Source: an uncultured Prevotellaceae bacterium (GTDB lineage: Bacteria; Bacteroidota; Bacteroidia; Bacteroidales; Bacteroidaceae). Taken from it: 64,000 nt of DNA. Positions within the stretch are counted from its first letter, which is position 1; each line of letters begins with the position of its first letter. Location of the stretch: the NCBI GenBank assembly GCA_947307015.1, contig CAMZHV010000004.1, positions 38,398-102,397 of the forward strand, in the 5' to 3' direction. The notes beneath the pieces were generated by a model, which did not search any database, was not told where the DNA came from, and saw nothing but the letters and a program-made list of their open reading frames with translations. The translations under genes and the position numbers were made by a program. Below are positions 12,112-58,197 of this stretch, piece by piece.

Positions 12112-12652
12112 CAGCCATTTACAAAAAAGGTTTCAGGTTTCAGATTTGCTTGTATCTTACTCACAATCAATGGCTTTCTGGCTGAACCTTTATCGGCGAG
12201 GTTTCAGCAGGTTTCAGCAAGCTTCAGCCTACCCACCCTTCGGGGCATCTCACAAACCAAAAGCGTCCCAAATTATAAGTAATCGAGCAAAAATATTTAA
12301 ATAGATTGACGATAAGATTGACGGAGATTGACGGAGAATATAAACACTTGAATAATTTTGTTTTATCCGTCAATTTCCGTCAATCAAGTCGTCAATCTTC
12401 GAAAATCAATAATGTAATCTAATTTTGAGTACTTACTTACCGATTTAAATTCCGATACATCAAGATTTAAGGTCAGATTTATGTCAGATTTAAGGTCTAT
12501 AAAAAATACATCCGAAACTTGAATATTACAATCATCTGAACCTTGCTGAAACCTGCTGAAACCTCAAACGCAAAGGTTCAGCTTGTATGGCTTTGATCAA
12601 CAGAAAGTTAAAACCCTAAGCTGAAACCTGAAACCTTTTTGATAAATGGCTG
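12112..12652. repeat. Nested imperfect inverted-repeat locus (arms A, B, C)
   Basis: Arm A 12112-12143/12621-12652; arm B 12181-12227/12536-12582; arm C 12303-12335/12366-12398; arms built of short direct repeats. Confidence 0.8.
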
Positions 12653-14566: not shown

Positions 14567-14635
14567 AAACTTGAAATTTCATTAAGAACAACGAATTACA
14601 CAAATTACACGAATTTCAGAAACTTTCTGATGTTG

Positions 14636-14870
14636 AAAAAAACAAGAAAAACCCCTCTTCTAATGTCTGAGTCTTTCAGACTTACGTGCTGCAGTCATGG
14701 CGATGCGCCTGAAAGCAGGCTTTCGCGCACGCCCCGCCATCATCACTCGTTTCGTCCCGAAACACAGACATCAGCAGAGGCAAACGCTCGAACTTGTTCG
14801 CTTCTTCGAGTCTCTTCTATGAGACGAGTCTGAAGAACATCGCGCTTCGCGCTAAAAAACAGAGCTACTG
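14636..14870 (+). repeat. Structured dispersed element, copy A (about 235 bp)
   Basis: About 90% identical by eye to 57631-57873; final 85 nt before the poly-A identical; many short hairpins. Confidence 0.85.
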
Positions 14871-14939
14871 GCATTAGGACAAGCTTCAGAGGACAATTTT
14901 TTATGTTTTTTTCTTTATCAAATAACTTGCGAAAGTTGA

Positions 14940-15239
14940 ATGAATAATAAAACGACGATTGAAGACTTTGTTTGTTGTGGCCAACATGCTGTCTGCGAGA
15001 AGGAGCTGTTGATGAAGGCCGCTGCAGAGCCCATCGAGTACTTCGACGACGAGGAGCTCGACCGATTCCGTGGACGTGCTGCCGATGCCTACACGCCAGC
15101 GGAGGAAGAGGAGTTCCGTGAGGTGCTTTACACCACGCTGAAGCGTGAGGTCGGCGACTGGCTGCGCAGCCTGCAACTGCGTGGCATAGAGTTGCCGGAA
15201 GGCATCCGCGATGAGGCTTTGATGCTGATGGACGAGTGA
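14940..15239 (+). CDS. Conserved-looking acidic hypothetical protein, 99 aa
   Basis: MNNKTTIEDFVCCGQHAVCEKELL...; typical composition, co-directional with the next gene. Confidence 0.6.
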   Translation: MNNKTTIEDFVCCGQHAVCEKELLMKAAAEPIEYFDDEELDRFRGRAADAYTPAEEEEFREVLYTTLKREVGDWLRSLQLRGIELPEGIRDEALMLMDE

Positions 15240-53784: not shown

Positions 53785-55347
53785 ATGACGAATGGAAGAT
53801 TACTTTGGGTAGACGACGAGATCGAGCTGCTGAAGGCGCACATCATGTTCTTGGAGAACAAGGGCTACGAGGTGTTCACCGTCAGCAACGGCTACGATGC
53901 CCTCGACCGCTGCCGTGAGCAGACCTACGACCTCATCCTCTTAGACGAGAACATGCCTGGCCTGAATGGCCTCGAAACGCTGGCGCGCATCAAGGACATC
54001 TCGCCGACAACACCCGTGGTGATGGTCACGAAGAGCGAGGAAGAGAACATCATGGATCAGGCCATTGGAAGCAAGATTGCCGACTACCTCATCAAACCCG
54101 TCAACCCGACACAAATCCTGCTGACGCTGAAGAAAAACATTCACCAGCGCGAGATTGTCACCGAACACACACAGACAGCCTACCAGCAGGACTTCGGCAA
54201 GATGGGGCAGCTCATCGACGACGCCTCCACCATCGACGACTGGAAGGACGTGTACCGCCGCCTCGTCAGCTGGGAGCTGCAACTCTCCGAGACGGACAGC
54301 GCCATGAAGGAGATGCTGGCCATGCAGAAGAGCGAGGCCAACGCCCGCTTCGCCCGTTTCATCGAAAAGAACTACCTCACGTGGATCAACAACGCCGAGG
54401 CTCCGGGACGTCCGGACACGATGAGTCCCGACATCTTCAAGCGCCGCGTGTTCCCGCTGTTGGATGCTGGCGAGAAAGTCTTTCTCATTGTCATCGACAA
54501 CTTCCGCTTCGACCAGTGGCGCATCCTCATGGACGAGATTGCCGACCTGTTCCTCATCGACGAGCAGCTCTACTGTAGCATTCTGCCTACGGCGACACAA
54601 TATGCTCGCAATGCCATCTTTTCGGGTCTGATGCCCAACGTCATCGCGGAGATGTTTCCTGACCTGTGGGTCGACGAGGACTCAGAGGAGGGCAAGAACC
54701 TCAACGAGGCACCGCTCATTCAGACGCTCTTTCAGCGCTACCGCCGCCAGCACACCTTCACCTACAACAAGATCAACGACTCTGCCGCAGCAGAGCGCTT
54801 GGTGCAGAAGCTACCGCAGCTGACGAAAAACGATGTCAACGTCTGCGTGCTCAACTTCATCGACATGCTCAGCCACGCCCGCACCGAGAGCCGCATGGTA
54901 CGCGAGCTGGCTTCCAACGAAGCCGCCTACCGCAGCATCACGCTCAGCTGGTTCCGCCATTCGGCTGTCGGCGACCTCTTCCGTGCCCTGGCACAGAGCG
55001 ACTACCACATCATTCTCACCACCGACCACGGTAGCATCCGTTGCCAGAACCCCATCCGCGTGAAGGGCGACAAGAACACGAATACCAACCTGCGCTACAA
55101 GCTCGGCAAGAATCTGGACTACAACGCCAAAGAGGTCTACGAGATTGCCGACCCTCATCGCGCTATGCTTCCCTCCCCAAACCTCTCAACGCGCTACATC
55201 TTCGCCCGCAGCAACAGTTTCTTCGCCTATCCCAACAACTACAACTACTACGTCAGCTACTACCGCGACACCTTCCAGCACGGCGGCATCTCCATGGAAG
55301 AAATGCTCATCCCGCTCATCGGGCTGACGCCGAAGAAAAAGGGATAA
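53785..55347 (+). CDS. porX: PorX: T9SS response regulator with C-terminal PglZ domain
   Basis: LLWVDDEIELLKAHIMFLENKGYEV; LILLDENMPGLNGLETLARIKD; PglZ-type VFLIVIDNFRFDQWRIL ... ILTTDHGSIRC. Confidence 0.92.
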   Translation: MTNGRLLWVDDEIELLKAHIMFLENKGYEVFTVSNGYDALDRCREQTYDLILLDENMPGLNGLETLARIKDISPTTPVVMVTKSEEENIMDQAIGSKIADYLIKPVNPTQILLTLKKNIHQREIVTEHTQTAYQQDFGKMGQLIDDASTIDDWKDVYRRLVSWELQLSETDSAMKEMLAMQKSEANARFARFIEKNYLTWINNAEAPGRPDTMSPDIFKRRVFPLLDAGEKVFLIVIDNFRFDQWRILMDEIADLFLIDEQLYCSILPTATQYARNAIFSGLMPNVIAEMFPDLWVDEDSEEGKNLNEAPLIQTLFQRYRRQHTFTYNKINDSAAAERLVQKLPQLTKNDVNVCVLNFIDMLSHARTESRMVRELASNEAAYRSITLSWFRHSAVGDLFRALAQSDYHIILTTDHGSIRCQNPIRVKGDKNTNTNLRYKLGKNLDYNAKEVYEIADPHRAMLPSPNLSTRYIFARSNSFFAYPNNYNYYVSYYRDTFQHGGISMEEMLIPLIGLTPKKKG

Positions 55348-57338: not shown

Positions 57339-57373
57339 ATAGTTGCCACCCAATCCTCTTATTGCGCGTATAC

Positions 57374-58197
57374 GCGCGCACGTGAAAGGCCTAAAAATCT
57401 CGTCACATCGTCACAGATTGACTTATCTGTCTGTTATACAGCTTGATATATCGTGACTTTTGGTGTGACAGAGCGTGACAAGGTGACGAAATCGAGGAAA
57501 ACGCGACGAAAAACATACTGAAATCAGGAAGAAAATAGGTTTAAACAGGACTCCTGTTGCGGATGTATGATTGTATTTCAGAACTTAAATCCAACATAAA
57601 TCTAAACCTAAATCATGAAGTTTCGGTATTAAAAAAACATTAAAAACACCTCTTCTGATGTCTGAGTCTTTCAGACTTGCGTGCTGCTGTCGTGACGATG
57701 CGCCTAAAAGCAAGCTTTTGCGCACGCTACGCCATCATCCCTCGTTTCGTCCCGAAACACAGACATCAACAGAGGCAAACGCTCGAACTTGTTCGCTTCT
57801 TCGAGTCTCTTCTATGAGACGAGTCTGAAGAACATCGCGCTTCGCGCTAAAAAAAAGAGCTACTGACGATCATTTTGATTTCATAATGTGGCATCAATGA
57901 AAAGATTGAATATCGTTTCAGCAGATGACTTCGCCGCGCTCAACGAATGCAATATAGACTTACCTAATCGCAAAAGTCACGGATTCTGTGCAAGAGGACA
58001 TGCTTTTTTATGTTCCAGAACCTAAAAATACATCATTTTGAATGTTAATATCATTTAATTTCAGGGTGAAAATGAGCCGTTTTGTCACCAAATCACGCCT
58101 CGTCACAGGCTTTGTCACGGCATAGTTACCTGTTTATCAGATATATAACCATACAATGTGACGATGTGACGACATTTTGATAGCCTCTCGTGCGCGC
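57374..58197. repeat. Second nested imperfect inverted-repeat locus
   Basis: Outer arms 57374-57415/58157-58197; second arms about 57420-57490/58079-58147; inner arms about 57562-57588/58008-58035. Confidence 0.75.
57631..57873 (+). repeat. Structured dispersed element, copy B
   Basis: See copy A (14636-14870); same orientation. Confidence 0.85.

Follow-up and report, generated by a model that had tools for sequence, protein, structure and literature searches.

REP/BIME repeats with their TnpA_REP transposase (RAYT) are intergenic, multicopy and palindromic, and are often arranged as inverted pairs or mosaics (PMC6006769, PMC2817692). The element described here likewise consists of intergenic multicopy units in inverted pairs. 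It differs in that its module is about 130 nt long, with three arms on a closing stem, whereas the REP hairpin measures 21-65 nt (PMC6006769); a small hairpin of that size with a GT[AG]G-type foot was not found in the module. Integron attC sites resemble the element in that structure is kept while sequence varies, the attC substrate being a bottom-strand DNA fold (PMC2727003). The marks of attC are RYYYAAC/GTTRRRY simple sites and the IntI integrase, and the module ends read AAAAACACC..GGCAAAAACACC by eye. Unlike attC, the modules lie outside cassette arrays and have a three-armed interior and A-rich ends. Bacterial MITEs are short, non-coding and multicopy, have inverted ends and are missing at the syntenic site of relatives. 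The element shares all of this, including terminal inverted repeats, and is set apart from MITEs by conserved internal branched folds; among the sampled drafts no parent insertion sequence with matching ends was found, and no target-site duplication was recognised at the fetched boundaries. BOX elements of Streptococcus pneumoniae are exchangeable structured modules in intergenic mosaics, like this element; they differ in module types and host phylum. Among these systems, the element works most like a BIME or MITE with a large branched DNA fold as its recognition unit. It is a real, widespread structural repeat, and in the literature searched we came across no account of anything like it.

The window, the whole 64,000-nt stretch of DNA that was analysed, holds two copies, A and B. 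Copy A (14635-14870) and copy B (57630-57865) align without gaps and are identical at 219 of 236 positions (92.8%), close to the roughly 90% given in an earlier note on this DNA. The longest block common to both without a difference is exactly 85 nt (14775-14859 in A coordinates), in agreement with the 85 identical nucleotides reported before. The features of the two copies are as follows.

14621..14634, + strand: left outer palindrome-like end AACTTTCTGATGTT, with 2 mismatches to AACTTTCGGAAGTT, a sequence that also terminates other copies
14635..14651, + strand: left A-rich inverted end of copy A, GAAAAAAACAAGAAAAA, supported by GAAAAAAACANNAAAAA site counts
14652..14783, + strand: copy A, structured module (141 bits with model R1; single-stranded DNA fold z -4.6 and -5.3)
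14654..14669, + strand: 5' arm of the closing stem of module A, from the fold; 12/14 helix pairs covary across copies
14663..14833, + strand: 56-aa ORF of copy A, judged not coding
14670..14682, + strand: hairpin 1 of module A, AGTCT-ttc-AGACT; 5/5 pairs covary
14686..14746, + strand: central arm of module A, with conserved core GCGCCTGAAAGCAGGCTTTCGCGC, CT bulge and CNNG-type loop; 9/10 apical pairs covary
14749..14763, + strand: hairpin 3 of module A, GTTTCG-tcc-CGAAAC; 6/6 pairs covary
14765..14780, + strand: 3' arm of the closing stem of module A, from the fold and covariation across copies
14784..14855, + strand: 3' module of copy A, CGCTCGAACTTGTTCG...GCGCTTCGCGCTAAAAA, recurring after a different 5' module in L007/L008
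14897..14913, - strand: right inverted end of copy A, reading GAAAAAAACATAAAAAA on the minus strand, from end-pattern site scans
14924..14937, - strand: right outer palindrome AACTTTCGCAAGTT
57630..57646, + strand: left inverted end of copy B, TAAAAAAACATTAAAAA, from the end-pattern scan of the window
57647..57778, + strand: copy B, structured module (137 bits with model R1)
57658..57828, + strand: 56-aa ORF of copy B, judged not coding
57779..57850, + strand: 3' module of copy B, the same as that of A over the common 85-nt block

The module ends are CC..GG and lie within A-rich linkers. The end pattern GAAAAAAACANNAAAAA has 14 sites in the own genome, most of which bound elements, against 0 for the reversed control; with 1 mismatch allowed, the window holds 3 sites against 0 expected. 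Paired changes in the GTCTC/GAGAC stem of the 3' module were read by eye in L011 and L014. The module boundary at 14652-14783 and the mosaic, multicopy, inverted-repeat-bounded build are not visible from one window alone.

The 5' part of the element is a module of about 130 nt with a clover-leaf-like fold, in which a closing stem carries two short hairpins and one long arm whose bulge is conserved. Compared with dinucleotide shuffles, the single-stranded DNA fold of module A gave z scores of -4.6 (top strand) and -5.3 (bottom strand), and 0/200 shuffles were as good. The RNA fold of the top strand had a z score of -3.1. A consensus fold was derived from 10 diverged copies, from which the covariance model (R1) was also built, and for 26 of its 39 pairs at least one copy has both partners changed. 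Across 96 distinct copies, both partners had changed in 36/39 pairs; two-sided cells numbered 805, and 229 in shuffles. Covariation scored 0.547, compared with 0.160 when shuffled and at most 0.106 when the partners were slid. Under a tree-based null (our own script, R-scape style), 10 pairs were significant in the model-based alignment and 5 in a structure-blind alignment, all of them within the structure. Covariation among homologues, which the earlier note had proposed as a check, is significant even where the alignment ignores the fold. In the central arm, the bulge carries a strongly conserved T, and the CNNG-type loop reads CAAG in 40/57 and CGAG in 11/57 copies. The fold of the module is under selection.

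Several stems had been described before from the two copies. The compensatory hairpin, gaaagc-ag-gctttc in A and aaaagc-aa-gctttt in B with a G:C to A:T change, is real. The stem gtctga/tcagac turned out to be an alternative pairing and not the conserved one: hairpin 1 pairs AGTCT with AGACT, and the partner of GTCTG is CAGAC in the closing stem.

Each copy has the 56-aa ORF, as had been reported. Its 11 substitutions had all been called non-synonymous. The number stood, and counting by codon gave 1 synonymous and 10 non-synonymous changes between A and B. Since about 29% silent changes are expected under neutrality, the replacement excess among 11 changes is not significant, and the silent-to-replacement count showed no excess of silent changes either. 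The codon changes therefore indicate nothing beyond the absence of protein constraint. The ORF is open in 4/6 full copies of the own genome, which would speak for a genuine small protein, but the frame is not conserved: L004 has a stop at 34 aa, and L006 has a different end and frame. Because of the 1:10 count and these broken frames, we judged the ORF to be non-coding and not a conserved gene, and a small protein encoded here is extremely improbable. Together with the covariation over 96 copies, the broken ORF strongly supports the earlier view of a structural element rather than a protein.

The earlier note had left the choice between an RNA and a DNA element open, and the frequencies of G·U and A·C pairs narrowed it towards DNA. 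RNase P RNA served as the wobble control; sequences from 30 genomes of the genus were aligned in MAFFT, and RNAalifold provided the fold. This control replaced tRNA, the tRNAs seen being the tRNA-Pro adjoining aroA. RNase P RNA pairs were 12.6% G·U and 0.9% A·C. Handled in the same way, the module gave 2.5% G·U and 3.7% A·C, and 5.6% and 2.7% when the opposite strand was folded; the larger model-based alignment gave 1.8% and 3.3%. Well-formed module pairs held 20 G·U against 42 A·C cells. Tested against the ratio in RNase P, this gives p = 5e-35, a value that is indicative only because related copies are not independent. Neither strand shows G·U at an RNA-like level. A selected RNA would accept wobble pairs on its own strand; since G·U is rare and no commoner than A·C, the constraint on the fold looks to act at the level of DNA and not RNA. 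Covariation is usually taken as proof of an RNA, and here it appears to be due to DNA structure. Comparing wobble with A·C frequencies, and using an RNA of the same genomes as control, provides a simple test that separates DNA from RNA folds. The bottom-strand fold was the more stable in 89/91 modules, exceeding a shuffled control that itself leans the same way. The weak A·C excess corresponds to G·T on the bottom strand, and both observations hint that the bottom strand is the folding strand.

To describe the distribution, we searched the own genome (a 3.0-Mb assembly of 94 contigs) and larger collections. The DNA search of the own genome gave 15 places, five of which cover most of the query. 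The covariance model gave 9 modules, the remaining weak matches being opposite-strand echoes at the same sites. These copy numbers are lower bounds, since several copies lie at contig ends. The build is a mosaic in which elements have exchanged modules: L007 and L008 pair the 3' module of A with a different 5' module, and the 5' module of L006 stands without that 3' module. Modules were detected by the covariance model in 27/121 sampled genomes of the genus, a single genome having at most 17 matches, and in 14/201 genomes (7/30 genera) of the family sample. The phylum sample gave 0/295 genomes besides the own one, the exact 30-mer scan of a genome-contig collection gave 0 matches, and neither the plasmid, phage and E. 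coli collections nor viral contigs scanned with one core sequence gave any. Four viral-contig matches to the spacing pattern were rejected as chance matches to repetitive, coding-like DNA without modules. The host belongs to an uncultured lineage of Bacteroidales: its aroA gene, beside copy A, is 64% identical to that of the Bacteroidales MAG RUG11694 and at most 58% to those of Prevotellaceae and others.

A plus and a minus module are often paired, about 80-460 bp apart with a variable interior, and such inverted pairs sit between ACAAAAACNNNAAAAACACC-like ends on one side and the inverse of these on the other. Across the 121 genomes of the genus, the pattern AAAAACNNNAAAAACMCC outnumbers its reversed control. 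Furthermore, L251 and L277 (G006), L263 (G140) and L258 (G079) have the same A-rich ends around modules missed by model R1. Additional module families probably exist. We conclude that A and B are copies of a dispersed, multicopy, non-coding intergenic repeat of a Bacteroidales family. If mobile, such elements account for part of the intergenic mosaic, and probably for some contig breaks, in genomes of the family.

We compared the site of copy A with that of relatives, where aroA and the following small gene are also adjacent. The gap between them ranges from a few to about 110 bp and is element-free in G019 (whose aroA is 82% identical to the own one), G064, G018, G065, G079, G067 and G072; in the own genome it exceeds 400 bp. 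Relatives lack copy A at the syntenic site, where their flanks have diverged too far to define an exact empty site. At the boundaries fetched, we recognised no target-site duplication. Near-identical blocks lie in unrelated flanks, one of 198 bp (G544) and one of 473 bp at 94% identity (G075). Syntenic absence and these blocks speak for insertion of the element. In L358/L359, the homology block holds a single module only, and spread by recombination or conversion is also possible because some blocks are of this kind.

The search for a mobilising enzyme covered sampled draft genomes, in which we found no mobilising enzyme, no recurrent gene family adjoining modules and no autonomous relative. 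Pairs of end patterns lie hundreds of bases apart, and none among those read encloses a transposase. One candidate autonomous element, G031:C6 with 2.1 kb between modules, read as two separate elements around another gene. In G031, two elements (L091 1575-4823) flank a NusG/UpxY-like regulator ORF and adjoin a tyrosine-recombinase-like ORF, both likenesses being judged by eye. Y1 transposases above 60 bits occur in 22/121 genomes of the genus. The single Y1 transposase gene of the own genome (C32:18081; L223 1300-2040) lies among the short palindromes GCCATTTCAATGGC and TGCCCCATCGGGGCA, which are unrelated to the modules.

We consider it reasonably likely that A and B are insertions of a non-autonomous, non-coding interspersed DNA element of mosaic, BIME/MITE-like build, mobilised in trans and recognised as folded DNA. 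A trans-acting enzyme would recognise the module as single-stranded DNA at the replication fork or as an extruded hairpin, with the bulged core GCCTnnnAGCNNGCTnnnGC as the probable recognition point, and would propagate copies with intact structure; most inserted copies are probably neutral, and the T-run ends could serve as bidirectional terminators. The mobilising enzyme and any host role are inferred. Alternatively, a structured RNA (sRNA, attenuator or bidirectional terminator) could have spread with mobile DNA, its fold acting after transcription. The strong covariation, the good top-strand RNA fold, the T runs that follow stems at either end and the small number of divergent contexts agree with this, but the scarcity of G·U on both strands compared with RNase P RNA, the presence of modules in both orientations inside one element and Rfam searches that returned nothing relevant at gathering and loose thresholds make it unlikely. 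It is also improbable that the element is a MITE of the classical type, derived by deletion from a DDE insertion sequence that recognises only the linear inverted ends, with folds that are incidental or otherwise used. Its A/T-rich inverted ends, small size, lack of genes and multiple copies would fit. Its ends are of low complexity and variable outside the A-rich core, no insertion sequence with such ends was found among the sampled drafts, and selection acts on the fold, a feature that DDE transposases can do without.

The closest published lead is TnpA_REP subclass 2.6 of Bacteroidetes, whose genes are reported to be flanked by atypical structures that also occur at other places in the genome (PMC6006769); no match to it was found here. 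REP/BIME-type repeats moved by such a Y1 enzyme at an atypical site would explain the inverted module pairs, the intergenic mosaic and folding at the DNA level. This origin is quite unlikely, given modules far larger than REP hairpins, strong Y1 genes in 6/27 module genomes against 4.9 expected by chance, and 30 fetched Y1 loci that hold no module and no flanking repeats of this kind. The link between modules and Y1 transposases is therefore unsupported in the sample. G069 has 17 modules and no Y1 gene in its draft genome; absence from drafts is not complete absence. Template-switch repair perfects imperfect palindromes, and inverted repeats homogenised in this way, with no selection on the fold, would favour Watson-Crick pairs over wobble. 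Copy pairs above 95% identity had 37 base pairs changed on one side and 1 on both, and two-sided changes dominate below 70% identity. One-sided changes that are recent and two-sided changes at depth mean that single insertions decay freely while spreading lineages keep pairing, as expected for a mobile element and not for immediate template-switch repair; the conserved bulge also persists across copies, and homogenisation is very unlikely. Returning to the trans-mobilised folded element, we tentatively suggest a new class of mobile DNA in Bacteroidales, non-autonomous, with branched DNA ends of about 130 nt and wobble-free Watson-Crick covariation, whose enzyme would read fold and not sequence. 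If mobile, the elements imply an unknown enzyme working on large folded DNA.

Regarding gene context, 28 elements could be classified with simple ORF calls: the neighbouring genes are tandem for 17, convergent for 10 and divergent for 1, compared with 10, 4 and 4 such arrangements in the window. This suggests that the elements may avoid promoter regions. A 98-aa ORF with a conserved CCGQHAVCEKELL stretch (window 14943-15239) follows aroA in many relatives and has no Pfam match. Positions 53785-55347 encode a response-regulator receiver domain fused to a PglZ domain.

To the left of copy B, about 200 bp (approximately 57370-57600) with GTGACGA-like repeats recur near-unchanged beside other copies on contigs C1 (L013) and, in part, C17 (L004). 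TAAATC units at 11-base spacing occur at 57586-57602 and 12476-12492 (0.01 expected by chance), and similar stretches lie beside many element copies. They are helically phased A/T tracts and possibly represent curved DNA or another repeat.
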